The notes under the pieces are model-generated. The model saw nothing but the letters and a program-made list of their open reading frames with translations, was not told where the DNA came from and searched no databases. A program made the translations under genes and the position numbers. From Pseudomonadota bacterium (GTDB lineage Bacteria; Pseudomonadota; Alphaproteobacteria; Acetobacterales; Acetobacteraceae): DNA of 33,459 bases. The stretch is from the NCBI GenBank assembly GCA_018971725.1, contig JAGXAE010000008.1:1-33459 (forward strand), given 5' to 3'. Of the stretch, positions 14,034 to 26,854 are shown piece after piece (the stretch's first letter is position 1; the number at the start of each line of letters is the position of its first letter).

Positions 14034-15240
14034 ATGCCCTTTCTGGTCGATGCTCAAACACTCAAAGCCGGGCTGATCATTTTCCGCCGCGCGGATGTGC
14101 AGCATCGCAACTGGTACTGCCGGATCAAGCTGCCAAGCGTGGACCGCTACAAAACGTTCTCTTTGAAAACCCCCGACATTAACGCGGCACGAGATCTGGC
14201 ATTTGACCAGGACGCGGAGGTACGCTTCTCGCGTCAAGCACGATATCCCTGTATTCAAAAAGTCGTTTAGCCAGGTTGCAGAGGAATTTTCCGCCTTCCA
14301 GAAGGAGCGTGCGGAGGCTGGGCAGATCAGCCATCACCGCTGGCGAGTGTTGGACTCGCACATACGAGCACAGCTCAACCGCTATATAGGCAGTGTTCAG
14401 ATCAGCCAGATCGGCAAGGAAAGCTGGGCTTCCTACCCCGTATGGCGGCAGAAAAATGGCCAAGGTCGCTCGGGTGGGCGGGTCAGCGAGGGCACGATCC
14501 GCGACGAAATGGCGACCTTACGCGCTATTCTTGGTTATGCTGCCCGCAGGCATTACATCCGCGAGGCCCAAATTCCGAATGAGAGGCTGCCGCTGAGCAA
14601 GGCAAGGCGGGAGGAATTCACCCCAGCCGAGTATCGCAAGCTGCACAATTTTGCACGGAGCTGGGTCAAAGACGCGCGAAACAGCTTGAATAGCTGGTAT
14701 CGCACAGTTGCCTATAACTTCGTGCTCATTATGGCCAACACCGGCATGCGGCCATCGGAAGCCAAAAACCTGCAATGGCGGGATATTTCGGAGCAGGCCG
14801 ATAAACAAGGTCGGCCATTTGTGAGGTTGAATGTGCGGGGGAAAGGCAAGCACCGCCATCTCGTTGCGGCGTCCACGGTGGCAACATACCTCGACCGTAT
14901 CCGTGCCATTTCTAAGGCCAGAGAGCCGGCCGACTACGTTTTCACCAATGAAGGCGCTCCCACCGCAACGCTGTACCACTCACTCGTAGAGGGGCTGTTG
15001 ACCGATTCTGAGCTGCTCATGAGTTCATCGGGCAGTCGTAGAAGCACGTCTTCCTTCCGCCATACTTACGCGACGTTTCGGCTTACCGAAGGCGTGGATG
15101 TCTATTTTCTGGCAAAGCAGATGGGGACCTCGGTGCAGATGATCGAAAAGCACTATGGGCATGTGACTCCTGTCAAGAATGCTGACCGCATTCTGCAGGG
15201 ATTGCCCGGATGGGAGCCCGCGCCCCCCGCCTCGCCATGA
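14034..15240 (+). pseudogene. int: tyrosine recombinase/integrase interrupted by a 1-nt frameshift
   Basis: 14034- frame encodes N-terminal domain (NWYCRIKLPSVDRYKTFSLKTPDINAARDLAFDQDAEVRF), continued in another frame by RVKHDIPVFKKSFSQVAEEF...; catalytic region NTGMRPSEAKNLQW, SFRHTYATFRL, EKHYGHV present. Confidence 0.8.
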
Positions 15241-15525: not shown

Positions 15526-15552
15526 TATAAATATCGTATTACGATATTTATA
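15526..15552. promoter_or_regulatory. perfect 12-bp-arm palindrome upstream of uspA, candidate MarR operator
   Basis: TATAAATATCGT-ATT-ACGATATTTATA; shares ATATCGT-N3-ACGATAT core with 22648-22666. Confidence 0.7.
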
Positions 15553-16875: not shown

Positions 16876-17961
16876 TCAGCCTTTGGCAGCTTCCGTCGCC
16901 GGCAATACCCGCCCGGCGGCTGCCAGCAGGTCTGTTTGCGATAACAGGCCAACAACCCGTCCGGCTGTGTCCTGGATGATAACGGCGTGTATCAGCCCAT
17001 CGGCCAGCGGGGTGAGAAGACTGAAAGCCGGTGTGTCGGGGCTGGCGGTGAAGGCTGGCACCATTGCCTCGCGGACCTGTCTGCCGCCGTGTGCGATTTG
17101 CCGTAGCCCGATGGTTCCGAGCAATTGCCCTGATGTGTCGGCCACCGGCAAAATGCGGAGATTATGCTCAAGCAGCAAAGCAAGGGCGGTCTCAATGTCA
17201 TCGTCAGGCCTGACCGTGATCACATCACGCGACATGATATCCGAACAAGTCAGATAGCCATGGGTGCGCAGCAGCGCCTGTCGTTCAACACGCTGGAGCA
17301 GCTGGTCGAGGTCGTTCCGGTTAATGTCAAATGCTTCACCGAGCTCCGCCAGGGCCGCGTCCACATCCTCGACATGAAACCCGGCGCGCAGGATGGGGGC
17401 CGGATCTTTCGTGCCAACAGGGCTCACGACTTTAGGGGGCACGTGCGGGTAGTTGTGCCTCAATAGTTTATGAAAAATGATTCCCAGCAAAACCAGCGTA
17501 ATGGAATTGAGAGCCATCGGAACCAGCGCGAAGGAAAACCCCTGGGCAGCCACGGCCGGCCCGCCAATAACAGCGGTGAGGGCGGCGGCGCCACCCGGCG
17601 GATGCAAGCACTTGGTTAACGACATGACAACGATGGCAAGCCCAACGGCGATACCGGAGGCGACCATCATATCCGGCACAAGGCGGTAGGCCAAAATACC
17701 GCAAAGGCATGACAAGGTATTGCCACCGATGATGGACCATGGTTGCGCCAGGGGGCTGGCGGGCACGGCGAACAGCAACACCGAGGACGCCCCAAGCGGG
17801 GCCACAATCAATGGCAGGTCGGGGTTGCCACCGAACGTCATCTCGCCGATTAACCCGGTCAGGCCGATGCCGATCAACGCGCCCAGGCCGTTGATCAGCC
17901 GATCGTTCAGGGTGGCGCCGGCCAGAATAGGCGAAAACAGCTTGAAACGGAGTTTTGACAT
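16876..17961 (-). CDS. HPP family membrane protein with C-terminal CBS domain pair
   Basis: HPPGGAAALTAVIGG signature; SDIMSRDVITVRPDDDIETALALLLEHNLRILPV CBS motif. Confidence 0.9.
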   Translation of the reverse strand: MSKLRFKLFSPILAGATLNDRLINGLGALIGIGLTGLIGEMTFGGNPDLPLIVAPLGASSVLLFAVPASPLAQPWSIIGGNTLSCLCGILAYRLVPDMMVASGIAVGLAIVVMSLTKCLHPPGGAAALTAVIGGPAVAAQGFSFALVPMALNSITLVLLGIIFHKLLRHNYPHVPPKVVSPVGTKDPAPILRAGFHVEDVDAALAELGEAFDINRNDLDQLLQRVERQALLRTHGYLTCSDIMSRDVITVRPDDDIETALALLLEHNLRILPVADTSGQLLGTIGLRQIAHGGRQVREAMVPAFTASPDTPAFSLLTPLADGLIHAVIIQDTAGRVVGLLSQTDLLAAAGRVLPATEAAKG

Positions 17962-18025: not shown

Positions 18026-19486
18026 TCATTGTGGCTGGCCAGGAGAAGTGGAGGCAGAGGCAAGGTTGGTGTTGCCCCAACCACCTCCCAGCGCGTAGAA
18101 CAAGGCGATTTGGCTGTCGCTGATTTTTGTTTGCAAATTGGCCACATCTATGTTCGCAGCAGCGAGTTTCTGGTCCGCGCCAAGTTGCATAAGCGCATTC
18201 ACTCTGCCTCCTTGATGTAATGCAGTCATGTCGGCCGCTACCTGCGCGGCAAAATTCCTGGCATCAGTCACGCTGGCCGCTTGGTCAAGCTCAGACTCAT
18301 AGGAGGTAATCGCGCTCTGGGCTTCCTGCAAAGCGGCAAGCACCGTGCCATCGAACGCGGCCTGGCGGGCTTGCACCTGGGCCTTGGCCTGCGCGATATG
18401 CGCGCGGATGGCGCTTTGATTCAAATCCCAACTGACCGATGGCCCAAGGTTAAACAGATTGGTCACGGGTGCGAATGCATCGAAGGCAGCACCGGTGGAC
18501 CCCACGGCACCGCCCAGCTTGAAGTCAGGGTAAAGTTTGGCCTCGGCCTGGCCCACGCGCGCGGTGGCGGCGGCCAGGCGGCGCTCGGCCTCACGCACGT
18601 CAGGCCGCCGGTTCAACAGGCTTTTCCCGTCACCAACAGGAAGGAGGGTGTGCAGCACCAGGGGCTGCTGGCAGGCGAGCCATGTTGGATCATAGGACTC
18701 GGGCGGTTCGCCCATTAGCGCCGCGAGGCGATAAGCGGCGTTGGTCTGCGCGGCTTGCAGCGGCGGCAATTTGGATTGCAGAGTCTCAAGCTGGGCCTGA
18801 GCCCCGGCCACATCAAAGCTCGTTGCGCGGCCATTTTCATGCAGCAGGCGCACAAAAGCCAATGATTGATTTTGCAGCGCGATAGCGTGGCGGAGTGCTG
18901 CGAGCTGGTTGCCGTCATCACAGATGTCGGCGTAAGCACGCGTGGTTTCAGCGGCGACGCTCACCTTCACAAGATCGCGCGCGTCTTCGGCGGCCTGGCT
19001 GTCGTCGTTCGCCGCCTCTATGCCACGGCGGATACCGCCGAACAGATCGGCATCGTAGCTGACGGTGATGCCGACATTATAGCGCTCGAGTTGCGCTGCG
19101 GGGATTTTGCTCAAGACAGCTTGCGCCGATCTCTGACCATAATCCGTGGAGTCGCTGGTGGTAACGCTGGCTTCCCGCCCGGCTTTTGCCGCTGCCAGCA
19201 ATGCGTAGGCGCTTTCCAGATTCGCCTGGGCTACCCGCAGGTTTGTGTTGGCGGCGAAGGCGCGCTGCACCAAGGCGTCAAGCGTTGGATCATCATATAA
19301 ATGCCACCAATTGTCAGGCGGGTTTGCAATTTGCGTAGCTGTGTTGTCGGCCAGGAAGTTGGCCTGCGCGGCGGGGTTGTTGATCATCGCTGTGCGGGGC
19401 AGCTTGTAATTTGGCCCCACCGTGCAGCCAGCCAGCAGCAATATCGCCAGCGATGCGCAAAGGCGCCGAGTGCGGCCCTCTACCAC
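18026..19486 (-). CDS. RND-type outer-membrane efflux lipoprotein, NodT family
   Basis: Lipobox LLLAGC followed by TVGPNYKLP; LLNRRPDVREAERRLAAATARVGQAEAKLYPDF motif. Confidence 0.92.
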   Translation of the reverse strand: MVEGRTRRLCASLAILLLAGCTVGPNYKLPRTAMINNPAAQANFLADNTATQIANPPDNWWHLYDDPTLDALVQRAFAANTNLRVAQANLESAYALLAAAKAGREASVTTSDSTDYGQRSAQAVLSKIPAAQLERYNVGITVSYDADLFGGIRRGIEAANDDSQAAEDARDLVKVSVAAETTRAYADICDDGNQLAALRHAIALQNQSLAFVRLLHENGRATSFDVAGAQAQLETLQSKLPPLQAAQTNAAYRLAALMGEPPESYDPTWLACQQPLVLHTLLPVGDGKSLLNRRPDVREAERRLAAATARVGQAEAKLYPDFKLGGAVGSTGAAFDAFAPVTNLFNLGPSVSWDLNQSAIRAHIAQAKAQVQARQAAFDGTVLAALQEAQSAITSYESELDQAASVTDARNFAAQVAADMTALHQGGRVNALMQLGADQKLAAANIDVANLQTKISDSQIALFYALGGGWGNTNLASASTSPGQPQ

Positions 19487-20376
19487 GGCCAGCTCCTCTG
19501 CTCCGTGGCTTCGCCATGCCGGGGCAGGATTTCAACCGAAGCGGTTTGGCCAGCAATCAACCTTACACCTTTGGGCACCTGATCGATCGCGATTCTGACG
19601 GGGATGCGCTGCGCCAGGCGCACATAGGTATATTCCGGCTGGATATTGTCGAGCATGTTTGCGCTTTTGTCGCGCTCCCGGTCCACGATCCCGGCGGCAA
19701 TGCTTTCGACATGCCCATGGATTACCCCGGCCACGCCCATCAGCCGCACATCTGCCTTGTCGCCAATGTTGATGGCGGGGATTTTGGTTTCCACGAAATA
19801 CCCTTCAATCCGGAGGGACGCCGTATCGACCAATGCAAAAGCCTCCTTACCGGAAGTAAGATAGTCTCCAGGCTGCAGAGTCATGTTAGAGACAACCCCA
19901 TCGACCGGCGCGCGCAGAACCGTGCGGGCGAGATTCAACTGCGCGAGACTCAGCGCTGCTTGGGCATTGGCTACGGCACTCTGCAATAAGCCAACCTTCT
20001 CCTCTCCCTTTTCGATGGTTTCGGTATCGACCAGCGTGGAAAGCGCATGGTTGCGACGATTATCGCGGTTGGCCTGTGCCAAGGCGATCCTCTGGCTATC
20101 AAGCGCCGCATGTGCCTGTGCCAGGGCAAGCTGATAGCGTGACTGATCGATCGTTAGCAGGGGTTGGCCTTTTTTAACAGCCTCATTGTCATGCACATTA
20201 ACGCTGGTGATCCACCCGCTGACATCAGGTGTGACCTGAACAATATCCGCCGCAACCTTGCCGTCGCGGGTCGTAGGCTGGATCTGATAACGTATCCAAA
20301 GTGCCACGATTAAGACCGCCGCGATGATCAGCAGCAAGAAGGTGGAGAATGCTTTGACAAGATGTTCACGGTTCAT
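19480..20376 (-). CDS. HlyD-family periplasmic adaptor (EmrA/AaeA-like)
   Basis: Single N-terminal TM, VTPDVSGWITSVNVHDNEAVKKGQPLLTID, LRAPVDGVVSNM; overlaps downstream OMF gene. Confidence 0.92.
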   Translation of the reverse strand: MNREHLVKAFSTFLLLIIAAVLIVALWIRYQIQPTTRDGKVAADIVQVTPDVSGWITSVNVHDNEAVKKGQPLLTIDQSRYQLALAQAHAALDSQRIALAQANRDNRRNHALSTLVDTETIEKGEEKVGLLQSAVANAQAALSLAQLNLARTVLRAPVDGVVSNMTLQPGDYLTSGKEAFALVDTASLRIEGYFVETKIPAINIGDKADVRLMGVAGVIHGHVESIAAGIVDRERDKSANMLDNIQPEYTYVRLAQRIPVRIAIDQVPKGVRLIAGQTASVEILPRHGEATEQRSWPW

Positions 20377-20378
20377 GG

Positions 20379-20606
20379 TCAGCGTGCAATCAACAAAGGT
20401 AAAAACCGATTGGCCATAATGGAAAGCCCCCACCAGAACGAAAGAAAGAGAGTAAGGTCGAGCAGGATCGGCCGCCAGAAAAAACGATCTATACGGAGCC
20501 GGTGCAGCACGACATGAGCAACCAAAGTGAGGATGCCCGCAACAACGGCTGCGGCAAGCCCAAGGGACACAAATCCACCGAAGATATTAAGCTGTTCAAT
20601 CATCAT
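20379..20606 (-). CDS. DUF1656 small inner-membrane protein
   Basis: MIEQLNIFGGFVSLGLAAAVVAGILTLVAHVVLHRLRIDRFFWRPILLDLTLFLSFW; canonical position before HlyD. Confidence 0.85.
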   Translation of the reverse strand: MMIEQLNIFGGFVSLGLAAAVVAGILTLVAHVVLHRLRIDRFFWRPILLDLTLFLSFWWGLSIMANRFLPLLIAR

Positions 20607-20723: not shown

Positions 20724-20746
20724 AAACTGCATATGAAATACATCTT
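20724..20746. promoter_or_regulatory. candidate NsrR site upstream of the DUF1656-HlyD-OMF operon
   Basis: AAACTGCATAT-G-AAATACATCTT fits the 11-1-11 inverted repeat of AANATGCATTT with 3 mismatches in 20 defined positions. Confidence 0.55.
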
Positions 20747-20803
20747 TATAGCGAACTGAAAATGCGCGCAAGTGCATCACCGTGTGGGCAGTCGGCCCGC
20801 CGC

Positions 20804-22636
20804 CTACGTCGAGAAGGTTTGGTCAGGCTCCTTCGCCTTAAGCGGGCCATCCTTGCGCCCCCGCCTGAAATGCGCCTCACGCCGGGATTCCGCCTTGAAT
20901 TCGCGCCAGTGCAGCTTGATCAGATCGCCGCGCGAAACAATGCCAAGTAGCTCACGCGTTTGCGGGTCAATAACCGGAAGTCGAGGGGTTTGCTGAGTCA
21001 TCATCCGCACCGCCACTGCAGAAATTGTTTCATCAGGCGCCGCCGTTGGCGTCTCAGTATGGGCAAGTAAATCAACAAGCAGGCGCTCCCTTGGCATCTC
21101 CTTGCCGATCCAGCCAAGTATGTCAGGGCGTGACACCAGCCCGGCCAACCGTCCCCGTGCGTCGATCACAGGATAGGCGCGATGCCGATGTGCCGGATCG
21201 AAAAAGAAATCGATGGTTTGGCCGATGGTAAAATCCGCGCTCAGCGTCTCGACAGGGCTTGCCATGATCTCGCGCACTCGCGCCAGCGAGGCCAGATCGA
21301 CACTGTATTCCCGGGTGACGTGGTGTCCGCGCCGCGCCAGCTTCTCGGTCAGAATCGAGCGTTTCATAACCAGAACCGTCACAGCATAACTCGCCATGCA
21401 GGCGGTGATGACCGGCAGCAGGACCTCATGATTTCCCGTGAGTTCAACAGCAAATATCGTCGCCGTTAGCGGGGCGCGCATGGTTCCTCCCATCATCGCC
21501 GCCATGCCGAGCACCGCCCAAAAACCCGGCGCAGCAGCAGGCAGCCATGGGGTAAAGACGGCGCCAAGGCCACCGCCAATAATCAGCAGCGGCGCGAGTA
21601 CACCGCCGGAGGTGCCCGACCCCAGAGCCACCGACCAGATCGCGGCTTTCACGGTCATGAGCCGAAACGCGGACAGGCCTGCTACCTGTCCGGCGAGGAG
21701 CTGTGCAATATTTGAATAACCAACACCGAGCGCGCGGGGATCAATTAGCCCACCAACGCCAACCGCAATACCGCCCAAGGCAGGCCACCACATCCAGTGC
21801 AGCCTTAAGCGGATGAACCAATCCTCGGTGGTATAAACGATCGTCGTGAGCACCGCGGAGCCGAACCCTGCAGCGAGACCTATCCCGGCCCAGGCAGCGC
21901 CATGCAGCGGATCTACTGTCACGCCACCGGTATAGGGAAAGAGGGGGGCCTGCGTGAGCAGATAACGCCGCTCAACGGCAGCGGTGATGCAGGCAATAGC
22001 CACGGGCAGCACGCTACGCGGCTTGAGTTCGAACAGCAGAAGTTCGATTGCGAGAAGTATCGCGGCTACGGGCGTGCCGAAAACAGCGGTCATGCCGGCA
22101 CAAGCACCGGCCACTAGCAAGGTTTTGCGTTCCATATCGGTCAGCGCGAAAAATTGCGCGAAGAGCGAGCCGATAGCGCCCCCGGTCATGATGATCGGCC
22201 CTTCCGCACCGAACGGCCCGCCCGTGCCGATGGAAATGGCAGAGGAGATCGGCTTCAATATGGCGACCTTCAGTCCCATGCGGGACCTGCCGAGCATAAT
22301 GGCCTCCAACGCCTCCGGTATGCCATGGCCTCGGATTTTCTCACTGCCATAGCGTGCCATCAGCCCGATGATGAGCCCACCGCCCACCGGAACGAAGATG
22401 GTCCATACCGGCAGGGGCATGTTCCCCCCGGACATGGAAAAACGGCCGAGATACGCCACCGAGGTCACTAAGGCGATGAGATGGAGCAAAAGCCAGCCGG
22501 CGGCCACGCCGCCAGTTCCAGCGGCCAGGCCCATCGCCGCAATGACCAGCACACGCGGGCCGGCCGTGAAATCACCGAGCTTTCTCGTCAAACCATCCGC
22601 ATGGCTCAAGGCCGCGCTCTTACTGTCTGTCTGCAT
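20804..22636 (-). CDS. ClC family chloride channel/transporter with C-terminal CBS domains
   Basis: RGHGIPEALEAIM, GTGGPFGAEGPIIMTGG with gating Glu, GSGTSGGVLAPLLIIGG; CBS pair at C-terminus. Confidence 0.92.
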   Translation of the reverse strand: MQTDSKSAALSHADGLTRKLGDFTAGPRVLVIAAMGLAAGTGGVAAGWLLLHLIALVTSVAYLGRFSMSGGNMPLPVWTIFVPVGGGLIIGLMARYGSEKIRGHGIPEALEAIMLGRSRMGLKVAILKPISSAISIGTGGPFGAEGPIIMTGGAIGSLFAQFFALTDMERKTLLVAGACAGMTAVFGTPVAAILLAIELLLFELKPRSVLPVAIACITAAVERRYLLTQAPLFPYTGGVTVDPLHGAAWAGIGLAAGFGSAVLTTIVYTTEDWFIRLRLHWMWWPALGGIAVGVGGLIDPRALGVGYSNIAQLLAGQVAGLSAFRLMTVKAAIWSVALGSGTSGGVLAPLLIIGGGLGAVFTPWLPAAAPGFWAVLGMAAMMGGTMRAPLTATIFAVELTGNHEVLLPVITACMASYAVTVLVMKRSILTEKLARRGHHVTREYSVDLASLARVREIMASPVETLSADFTIGQTIDFFFDPAHRHRAYPVIDARGRLAGLVSRPDILGWIGKEMPRERLLVDLLAHTETPTAAPDETISAVAVRMMTQQTPRLPVIDPQTRELLGIVSRGDLIKLHWREFKAESRREAHFRRGRKDGPLKAKEPDQTFST

Positions 22637-22647
22637 GGCGATGGCTA

Positions 22648-22666
22648 TATATCGTAGAACGATATA
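22648..22666. promoter_or_regulatory. palindromic candidate MarR operator just upstream of clc
   Basis: TATATCGT-AGA-ACGATATA, perfect 8-bp arms, between marR stop and clc start. Confidence 0.65.
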
Positions 22667-22674
22667 ATCAAGCG

Positions 22675-23097
22675 TTAATCGAGCTGCGCCAGCATATCTC
22701 CCAGCAAAGGCCGAAGCCGACGCAACTCGTCACGATGCACGAGGGACAAGCCGCGCAACGCCTTTTCGGCGGATGGCGTTAGATGCAACCGCATCATGCG
22801 CCGGTCAGTCGTGCTTGGTTGGCGGCTGACCAGCGCCAATGCGGTTAGCCGGTCCGCCAGCTCGCTCGCGCTATGCGGCTGGATCAGCAAAAATTCCGCA
22901 AGCTCGCCTATAGACAAAGCGCGGTCCGGCGCCCCCCGGATGGCCAGGAGAGCTTGGTGGTGCTGTGGCGTCAACCCTGCCGCACGGGCCGCATTCTCGC
23001 TGAAATGCGTGAAGCGGCGCAATGCGGCGCGAATCTCCGCCAAGGTCTTATAGTCTTTATCCGAAAGGCAACTGCCGGGCTCGTTATGTCTCGCCAT
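22675..23097 (-). CDS. MarR family transcriptional regulator
   Basis: Winged-helix pattern LLIQPHSASELADRLTALALVSRQPSTTDRRMMRLHLTPSAEKAL. Confidence 0.9.
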   Translation of the reverse strand: MARHNEPGSCLSDKDYKTLAEIRAALRRFTHFSENAARAAGLTPQHHQALLAIRGAPDRALSIGELAEFLLIQPHSASELADRLTALALVSRQPSTTDRRMMRLHLTPSAEKALRGLSLVHRDELRRLRPLLGDMLAQLD

Positions 23098-23147: not shown

Positions 23148-24326
23148 TTAATCCAGCGCCTCCGCCGGGCCGAAGAACTCGTAACGGCGGTGCGTATCCG
23201 GCAGGCCAAGGACCGACAGGAAGCGTTTAATGGCAGCCATGAACGGCTTGGGTCCGAGGAAATAAACATCGCAGTCCAGCGCCGCCGGCAGCCAGTTTTG
23301 CAGATGCTCGATCACCGGGCGGCCCAGCGCACGCGCTTCACCCTCACCGCCATGCTCCAGGACCGTGAAATGCCGGAATCTCGGGTGGCGTGACGCCCAG
23401 TCTTCCAGGGTCTTGCCAAAGGCATAAGCATTCCGGTTGCGAGCGTAGTGCAGGAAAATCACCTCGCGGTCTCCCTTCGCCAGCGCGGCCTCCGCCATGG
23501 CGAGCGTTGGTGTAATGCCAACCCCGCCGCTAATCAGCACTAAGGGGCTCGGGCTGTCTTGTAAAACGAACTCACCTGCCGGTGGAAAAATATCCAGCGT
23601 ATCGCCCTCCTTAACGTGGTCGTGCAAGAAATTTGAGGCCAAGCCGCCGGGCTCGCGCTTCACGCTGATACGGTAGGAGCGGCCGTTCGGTGCAGCCGAG
23701 AGAGAATAGTTGCGTCGCACCTCTTGGCCGCCGATGACAAGACGTAAACCAAGATATTGGCCGGGCGTGAAGTCGAGCACAGGCTCAGAGTCCGCGGGCT
23801 CCAGATGGAACGAAGTGATCTCGGTGCTCTCCACCTGCTTACGAGTAACACGGAACGCCCGCGCGCCACGCCAGCCGCCAGGTGCTGCCACGAGCTTGTC
23901 GTATAAATCCCTTTCCGCGCCGATCAGCAAATCAGCGAGCTGTTGGTAAGCCGCTGCCCAGGCATCGATCACCGCGTCTGTAGCGATATCTGCCCCGAGC
24001 ACTTCACGGATTGCACGCAGCAAGCAGGCGCCAACGATAGGGTAATGCTCGGGCAACACTTGCAATGCTACGTGTTTGTTGACGATTTGCGCCGCGAGCG
24101 GTCCAAGCTCCTGAAGCCGGTCGATGTTCTTGGCGTAGATCAGCACCCCGTTGGCCAGCGCGCGTGGCTGAGCGCCGCTGGCTTGATGTGCCTGATTGAA
24201 CAGTGGCCGCACCTGCGGATATTCGCCCAGCATGATTTTGTAGAAATGCGTAGTCAAAGCCTCGCCCCCCGTTTCCAGAATAGGGACAGTGGCCTTGATG
24301 ATAGCGGTCTGGTCGGCAGTGAGCAT
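23148..24326 (-). CDS. hmp: flavohemoprotein / nitric oxide dioxygenase
   Basis: Globin domain (AIIKATVPILETGGEALTTHFYKIM...HYPIVGACLLRAI) fused to FAD/NAD reductase (RRNYSLSAAPNG, LISGGVGITPTLAM); RBS AAGGAG. Confidence 0.96.
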   Translation of the reverse strand: MLTADQTAIIKATVPILETGGEALTTHFYKIMLGEYPQVRPLFNQAHQASGAQPRALANGVLIYAKNIDRLQELGPLAAQIVNKHVALQVLPEHYPIVGACLLRAIREVLGADIATDAVIDAWAAAYQQLADLLIGAERDLYDKLVAAPGGWRGARAFRVTRKQVESTEITSFHLEPADSEPVLDFTPGQYLGLRLVIGGQEVRRNYSLSAAPNGRSYRISVKREPGGLASNFLHDHVKEGDTLDIFPPAGEFVLQDSPSPLVLISGGVGITPTLAMAEAALAKGDREVIFLHYARNRNAYAFGKTLEDWASRHPRFRHFTVLEHGGEGEARALGRPVIEHLQNWLPAALDCDVYFLGPKPFMAAIKRFLSVLGLPDTHRRYEFFGPAEALD

Positions 24327-24551
24327 AAAGCAGGCTCCTTCAGGTGTGCGTGGCAGAAAAGAGGGGGAGGAAAGCCGGAGTTAGCTGCTTCAGAAACTTG
24401 TGCAGCGAGCAGGACAGAGGTCTTCCTGAGTTGGGAAATTAAAAGAGCCGGTCTGGACGGCAAGGTCAGGCTCGTAGGAAGCTTCGACGATTGACATGAC
24501 AATGGGCACTAAAACAGGTATCCTGTACACATCTTTAGCAGATAGACATAA

Positions 24552-24574
24552 AAGATGCAATAGATATGCATCTA
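24552..24574. promoter_or_regulatory. candidate NsrR operator between hmp and nsrR
   Basis: AAGATGCAATA-G-ATATGCATCTA, 11-1-11 arrangement, 4 mismatches in 20 positions to AANATGCATTT inverted repeat; 11 bp from nsrR ATG. Confidence 0.7.
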
Positions 24575-24585
24575 TAGGATAGCCC

Positions 24586-25020
24586 ATGCGCCTGACACGT
24601 TTTTCGGACTATGCAATCAGAGTCCTGCTCTATCTAGCAACGCATAATGATCGTCTCTGCTCGATCGCCGAAATCGCGCAAGCTTACGGGATCTCTCAAA
24701 ACCACTTGATGAAGGTGGTGAGCGACCTAGCAGGACCTGATTATGTGCATAGCTTGCGTGGCCGCAGGGGGGGCATTCGCTTGGCTCGACCAGCAGAGGA
24801 AATTAATATTGGTCAACTGTTGCGGCATACGGAGGGAAAGGTTGATCTGGTCGGTTGCGGAGAGTGCATTCTGGCATCATCTTGCGGAATGACCTGCGTC
24901 TTCAAGGAAGCCGTGCAAAATTTCTTCTGGGCCCTGGATCGGTACAGTCTAGCTGAGGTGATGGCAAAAGGCGCGCCCTCCCAGTTGCGCCAGATACTGA
25001 CATCCGGCTCCTTGCCGTGA
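24586..25020 (+). CDS. nsrR: Rrf2 family NO-sensing repressor NsrR
   Basis: MRLTRFSDYAIRVLLYLATHNDRLCSIAEIAQAYGISQNHLMKVVSDL; Cys cluster; divergent from hmp. Confidence 0.93.
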   Translation: MRLTRFSDYAIRVLLYLATHNDRLCSIAEIAQAYGISQNHLMKVVSDLAGPDYVHSLRGRRGGIRLARPAEEINIGQLLRHTEGKVDLVGCGECILASSCGMTCVFKEAVQNFFWALDRYSLAEVMAKGAPSQLRQILTSGSLP

Positions 25021-26222: not shown

Positions 26223-26465
26223 ATGAACCTGCAAATAAGAGACCCGCGCGCACGTGAGCTCGCCAAACGAATCGCGGAACGCCGTCACATCTCCATGACC
26301 GAGGCTGTGGTTGAGGCCTTGGAAGCAGAATACCGCCGTGTGGCCGCCGAACGGTCTCTCGCGGAACGCCTCGGCGCCCTTGCAGACGAGCTTGCCGCCA
26401 TGGCCAAGCCGGGGGGGCGGGATATGACGCAAGAAGAGATCGATGAGATGTGGGGGCATCCCTGA
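26223..26465 (+). CDS. vapB: type II antitoxin, VapB (Rv0623-like/PSK) family
   Basis: MNLQIRDPRARELAKRIAERRHISMTEAVVEALEAEYRR; overlaps vapC start. Confidence 0.9.
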   Translation: MNLQIRDPRARELAKRIAERRHISMTEAVVEALEAEYRRVAAERSLAERLGALADELAAMAKPGGRDMTQEEIDEMWGHP

Positions 26466-26854
26466 TGTTCATCGACACATCGGTGATCGTCGCCATTCTT
26501 TCCAATGAGCCGGATGCCACCGCATTCGCCAATAAGATCGAGGCGGCGGAATGCTGCACCTCCGCCTTGGTTATACTGGAAGCAGCCATGAGGCTTTCGA
26601 CCAAGCTGCAGATTGACCCGGTGGAAGTGGAGCAAAGAATTCAGGCACTCTTGATCGAGGCGGGCATCACGCTGGCGCCCATGGATGCCAAAACCGCCAG
26701 CCTGGCCGTAAAGGCGTTCGCCGACTATGGCAAAGGCCGGGGCCATCCCGCCCAGCTCAATCTGGCTGACTGCCTTTCTTACGCCTGCGCCAAGGCACAG
26801 GGCATCCCGCTTCTCTATAAAGGGAAAGACTTCTCGCACACGGATTTAGGCTGA
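26465..26854 (+). CDS. vapC: type II toxin, VapC PIN-domain ribonuclease
   Basis: MFIDTSVIVAIL, LVILEAAMRL, LNLADCLSYACAK acidic PIN residues retained; TGATG overlap with vapB. Confidence 0.93.
   Translation: MFIDTSVIVAILSNEPDATAFANKIEAAECCTSALVILEAAMRLSTKLQIDPVEVEQRIQALLIEAGITLAPMDAKTASLAVKAFADYGKGRGHPAQLNLADCLSYACAKAQGIPLLYKGKDFSHTDLG

Follow-up and report, generated by a model that had tools for sequence, protein, structure and literature searches.

The AaeXAB operon of Escherichia coli is devoted to the efflux of p-hydroxybenzoate. The operon described here has a small DUF1656 protein (AaeX) and an AaeA-like adaptor in common with it, but it lacks the FUSC subunit (AaeB) as well as an adjacent LysR gene, and it contains an outer-membrane efflux protein (OMF) and, as its last gene, an HPP protein with CBS domains. 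Export pumps connected to nitrosative stress have been described: MexEF-OprN of Pseudomonas aeruginosa is induced by this stress, and MdtEF of the E. coli MdtEF-TolC system protects against nitrosative damage (PMC10333786). However, these are RND pumps under the control of MexT or of EvgA and other regulators, not of NsrR (PMC10333786). For NsrR itself, the accessible text of Rodionov 2005 (PMC1274295) lists narK-like nitrite-extrusion genes and tehB as predicted regulon members, and reports that the regulator was not found in alphaproteobacteria except in R. capsulatus E1F1. The locus analysed here resembles the regulons of that text in having an Rrf2 regulator beside hmp, a box of the type gATGyAT-N5-ATrCATc, hmp and hcp as targets, and some transporter targets (narK-like and tehB there). 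It differs in the target, a DUF1656-HlyD-OMF-HPP operon, whereas neither "efflux" nor "HPP" occurs among the targets named in the accessible text (PMC1274295). No report of an NsrR-controlled tripartite pump or DUF1656/HlyD exporter was found in the literature, subscription journals being mostly outside the search, and as far as found the link between NsrR and such an operon has not been described before.

The window, which is the whole stretch of 33,459 nucleotides that was analysed, corresponds to contig C43 of a draft genome of 2.4 Mb (G000, 86% complete); Acidocella aromatica and further Acidocella records are among its same-genus relatives. On its minus strand the genes hmp, marR, ClC-CBS, DUF1656, HlyD, OMF, and HPP-CBS follow each other in this order, and nsrR is divergent from hmp. 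Hmp is a flavohaemoglobin (23148-24326; NF009805, 523.7 bits, cut-off 432), followed by a MarR-family regulator (22675-23097; PF12802) and, at the end of hmp-MarR-ClC, by a ClC-type anion channel or transporter with CBS domains (20804-22636; PF00654 and CBS). This order recurs in G004, G025, and G026. The efflux operon starts with the small AaeX-like DUF1656 membrane protein (20379-20606; PF07869, 34.4 bits, cut-off 26.5) and continues with a HlyD/AaeA-like periplasmic adaptor (19480-20376; PF16576/PF13437, the best NCBIfam model being AaeA with 227 bits, under its cut-off of 400), a NodT-type OMF (18026-19486; PF02321, TIGR01845 with 249.9 bits, cut-off 210), and the HPP membrane protein with a C-terminal pair of CBS domains (16876-17961; PF04982, 164 bits). 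We infer that the four genes from DUF1656 to HPP form a single transcript. A tyrosine recombinase and a possible VapBC-like pair flank the hmp-HPP cluster (window 14203-15240 and 26223-26854), and given these neighbours the cluster may be mobile; the sole match in plasmid records is the ClC gene.

The regulator gene lies on the plus strand (24586-25020; PF02082, 112.6 bits). Its product has NsrR (5n07) as the best PDB match (E 3.4e-16), and the best NCBIfam model is also NsrR, but because the score of 117.3 bits is under the equivalog cut-off of 182 we call it NsrR-type. Asp8 and the three cluster cysteines can be read from the sequence (D8, C91, C94, and C100), the first cysteine spacing being shorter than in 5n07. 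Between nsrR and the divergent hmp there are two NsrR boxes, at -34 (24552-24574) and at -73 (24513-24535) of nsrR; relatives show the same layout, and close relatives have equivalents of the -34 box. The genome encodes a second nsrR-hmp locus on a contig of 4.1 kb (L075, G000:C107), also with two NsrR boxes, whose NsrR is 76% and whose Hmp is 84% identical.

The palindrome in front of the efflux operon, AAACTGCATATGAAATACATCTT, is found at 20724-20746 (minus strand) and has the 11-1-11 architecture that the sequence-only reading had ascribed to it. Its right arm AAATACATCTT is close to perfect compared to the NsrR consensus, and its left arm AAACTGCATAT deviates from it. That reading had counted three mismatches in 20 positions and considered the site a slightly better match than the one at nsrR itself, neither of which survives recounting. 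Compared to AAGATGCATTT-N-AAATGCATCTT there are four mismatches in 22 positions, and the -34 box AAGATGCAATAGATATGCATCTA has the same number; compared to gATGyAT-N5-ATrCATc there are two mismatches in 14 positions for the efflux site and one in 14 for the nsrR box. A search with the generic NsrR consensus, three mismatches being allowed, gave no match. With the 14-position consensus and two mismatches, 0.54 matches are expected per window and 10 of 100 shuffles reach two; the two window matches to this consensus alone are not significant. Because the generic consensus is too weak as a test, a genus matrix was built from 26 NsrR boxes in the nsrR/hmp promoters of Acidocella, the efflux sites not being part of the training set, and applied to the window and to the fetched loci. 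Only three window matches score above 5 bits, namely the -34 box (24552, 28.0 bits), the efflux site (20724, 22.2 bits), and the -73 box (24513, 22.1 bits), and the next best match, which is not an NsrR box, has 4.8 bits. The efflux site thus equals the -73 box and is below the -34 box. Its score does not change when the boxes of its own genome are removed from training, the training boxes not being independent since they come from related promoters. In 10 Mb of random sequence with the composition of the window no match of at least 22.2 bits was found, and four were found in 10 Mb of intergenic-like composition, so that the efflux site is significantly above chance with the genus matrix. A looser core pattern, devised after both kinds of site had been seen, has three exact matches across the 2.4 Mb of the genome: the efflux site and the two nsrR/hmp promoters.

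The box overlaps a putative -10 element, TATAAA (20745-20750, minus strand), of the minus-strand efflux operon, which is preceded by a putative -35 element, CTTGCG (20767-20772, minus strand), with a 16-nucleotide spacer. A generic scan of the ClC-DUF1656 gap for sigma-70 promoters and terminators was uninformative and did not pick up this -10 element. Orthologs of the DUF1656-HlyD-OMF operon were found in ten genomes besides G000. HlyD relatives at good identity in GTDB contigs all belong to Acidocella-type loci, and the comparison therefore rests on one genus. In six of these operons (G002, G004, G007, G025, G026, and G030) a palindrome of the efflux type directly follows a TATAAAG-like -10 element, with scores between 12 and 24 bits, those of G007 and G025 reaching only 12-14 bits. 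Together with G000 the box is kept at the same promoter position in all seven operons of this clade. TATAAAG is kept in six of the seven promoters, and the -10-like element of G007 is TATAAGG, one base shorter than in the other six. In the alignment of six promoters, from which G007 was left out, the block from the -35 element to the box is the best-conserved part, and CTTGC is invariant. The gene upstream of the operon varies: G000 and G004 have a ClC gene there, G030 and G026 a gene whose translation we read as MEKHLA-like. Conservation of the block is thus not simply a by-product of a longer unchanged stretch. The operons of G011, G016, G021, and G034 have the order FUSC-DUF1656-HlyD-OMF, and no efflux box is present before their DUF1656 genes. 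In G021 two nsrR boxes precede the nsrR gene heading the operon, a weak box of 12.8 bits lies between hmp and FUSC in G016/KAb 2-4, and the FUSC-type operons of A. aromatica (L177) and a near relative (L176) have no box before FUSC.

In five genomes hmp or nsrR is moreover a neighbour of the efflux operon, and four different arrangements occur. In G000 and G004 the order is hmp-MarR-ClC-efflux, in G007 nsrR is located tail-to-tail with the operon, in G021 nsrR directly precedes FUSC-DUF1656-HlyD-OMF on the same strand, and in Acidocella sp. KAb 2-4 (L178) FUSC-DUF1656-HlyD-OMF is divergent from hmp. In the fetched loci, matrix matches of at least 12 bits mostly precede genes for nsrR, hmp, hcp, HPP, or a truncated globin; beyond the genus, an nnrS-like gene is also preceded in this way. 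Apart from nsrR, hmp, and HPP, we named these genes by reading their translations. Because these loci were picked by NsrR, HlyD, HPP, or box searches, the tally is not an unbiased genome scan. Beside another Rrf2 gene in G002 (L119, G002:C25), hcp-hcr is accompanied by NsrR-like boxes on both sides (at about 3521 and 4102).

Taken together we regard an NsrR-type operator as the probable identity of the palindrome, although with moderate confidence, and other regulators have to be considered. Efflux operons are often controlled by MarR proteins, and the palindrome could be the operator of the MarR protein from the hmp-MarR-ClC operon, NO acting only indirectly, by raising the MarR level. Exactly those five genomes with the strongest match to the full-length efflux pattern of 28 bp (G000, G004, G025, G026, and G030) encode this MarR, none of the six other genomes carrying the efflux operon does, and in G000 and G004 marR is located just upstream of the operon. 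However, the efflux boxes score on a matrix built from NsrR boxes, and G002 and G007 keep the box although marR was not detected in these assemblies (86% and 80% complete). G002 does have NsrR, and its efflux box reaches 20.8 bits with G002 left out of training. In addition, marR of G030 is neither located behind hmp nor preceded by such a box, and the perfect palindrome ATATCGT-N3-ACGATAT between marR and ClC is a candidate for an alternative MarR operator, although ClC genes of G005, G013, and G017 have it in front of them as well. The window has one copy ahead of ClC (22649-22665) and one ahead of a Usp-like gene (15531-15547). Eight of the 38 genus genomes each contain a single longer form, which lies just before the ClC gene in those that were read. 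Control by MarR is unlikely, but draft genomes miss genes, which weakens the comparison of NsrR and MarR on both sides.

The divergent box might also belong to a different Rrf2 paralog (the 43-48% identical proteins of L017-L020, or the one tied to hcp-hcr) or to another unlinked regulator, in which case the signal may not be NO. The efflux box deviates from the NsrR consensus in a consistent way of its own, one arm being AAACTG or similar in most orthologs compared to AA(G/C)ATG, and the recognition helix of the paralog resembles that of NsrR. Four genomes with a missing or broken close NsrR (G007, G025, G026, and G030) do have the paralog. NsrR was found in G000 and G002, its frame is disrupted in G007, hmp is at the contig end in G004, and no NsrR of more than 55% identity was found in the box-keeping G025, G026, and G030, these being incomplete assemblies (77-90% complete). 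A full hmp match was not found in G030 or G007 (likewise 77-90% complete, the hmp of G007 running off its contig). In G007 (L084, G007:C82, 515-1332) a mutation or an assembly error has broken the nsrR frame into two parts, and both boxes there are near perfect. On the other hand, such a paralog was not found in G000 (86% complete), and near-perfect NsrR boxes are retained in front of hmp in G025 and G026, which indicates that an NsrR-like activity probably exists in these species. Ownership of the box by such a paralog or by another unlinked regulator seems rather improbable to us. A chance resemblance without any regulator, for which it could be said that about 0.5 such matches to the generic consensus are expected per window, is very hard to reconcile with the genus-matrix score and with a box that seven orthologs keep at the same place in the promoter.

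Under control by NsrR, the NsrR-type Fe-S repressor (the 24586-25020 product, or an Rrf2 paralog) would bind the 23-bp palindrome and block transcription by covering the -10 element and the start region in the DUF1656-HlyD-OMF-HPP promoter. Damage of the Fe-S cluster by NO would release the repressor, and the efflux operon would then be expressed along with hmp. Because the promoter carries a conserved copy of the NsrR site, the efflux pump is probably switched on together with the NO-detoxifying enzyme Hmp. The sequence-only reading had placed the operon, possibly including HPP, in the same regulon as hmp. The operator part of this proposal is supported by the genus-matrix score, the same position in seven promoters, the overlap with the putative -10 element, the linkage in five genomes, and the association of HPP with hmp or hcp under NsrR-like boxes; control by NO is what we infer from it, and the clustered MarR stays a candidate regulator.

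HPP is located directly downstream of the OMF gene in all six clade operons whose contigs extend that far. An HPP gene is also located behind hmp in G000:C107 and G015:C160; in G024 HPP has a separate box of 28.5 bits, and in G017 it is divergent from hcp with a box of 16.0 bits. The efflux operon contains no FUSC (AaeB) gene, and the genome-wide best FUSC match in G000 has 19.3 bits, below the cut-off of 30.9. The HlyD tree separates the operons with HPP (G000, G002, G004, G007, G026, and G030, with G025 truncated) from those with FUSC. Since the boxed clade has HPP instead of the AaeB-like FUSC that related operons carry, HPP may be the inner-membrane partner of the DUF1656-HlyD-OMF pump. 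One member of the HPP family, NITR2;1, is a nitrite transporter (Maeda 2014, cited from PMC4137279), and the protein has the TM_HPP membrane domain in common with it (PF04982, 164 bits). Unlike NITR2;1 as presented there, the HPP protein here is bacterial, has CBS domains, and is encoded behind an efflux operon, and its transport of nitrite is putative.

The exporter, perhaps with HPP as its inner-membrane part, would presumably remove nitrite, nitrate, a nitrosated metabolite, or some other product of NO chemistry. In acidophiles nitrous acid and NO form from nitrite, and the cell tends to attract anions; on general grounds, the disposal of nitrogen oxides should therefore matter to them. A far-reaching and doubtful scenario would be that in the Acidocella clade HPP took over from FUSC as the inner-membrane component of a tripartite DUF1656-HlyD-OMF exporter, and that NsrR induces this pump together with Hmp and ClC so that the acidophile can expel what NO detoxification leaves behind, be it nitrite, nitrate, or nitrosated products. 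Reading the export operon as an NsrR target makes a concrete bench test possible. If this reading is true, the reach of NsrR would extend beyond the enzymes consuming NO to a trans-envelope exporter, and a bacterial role in NO stress could be assigned to the HPP family.
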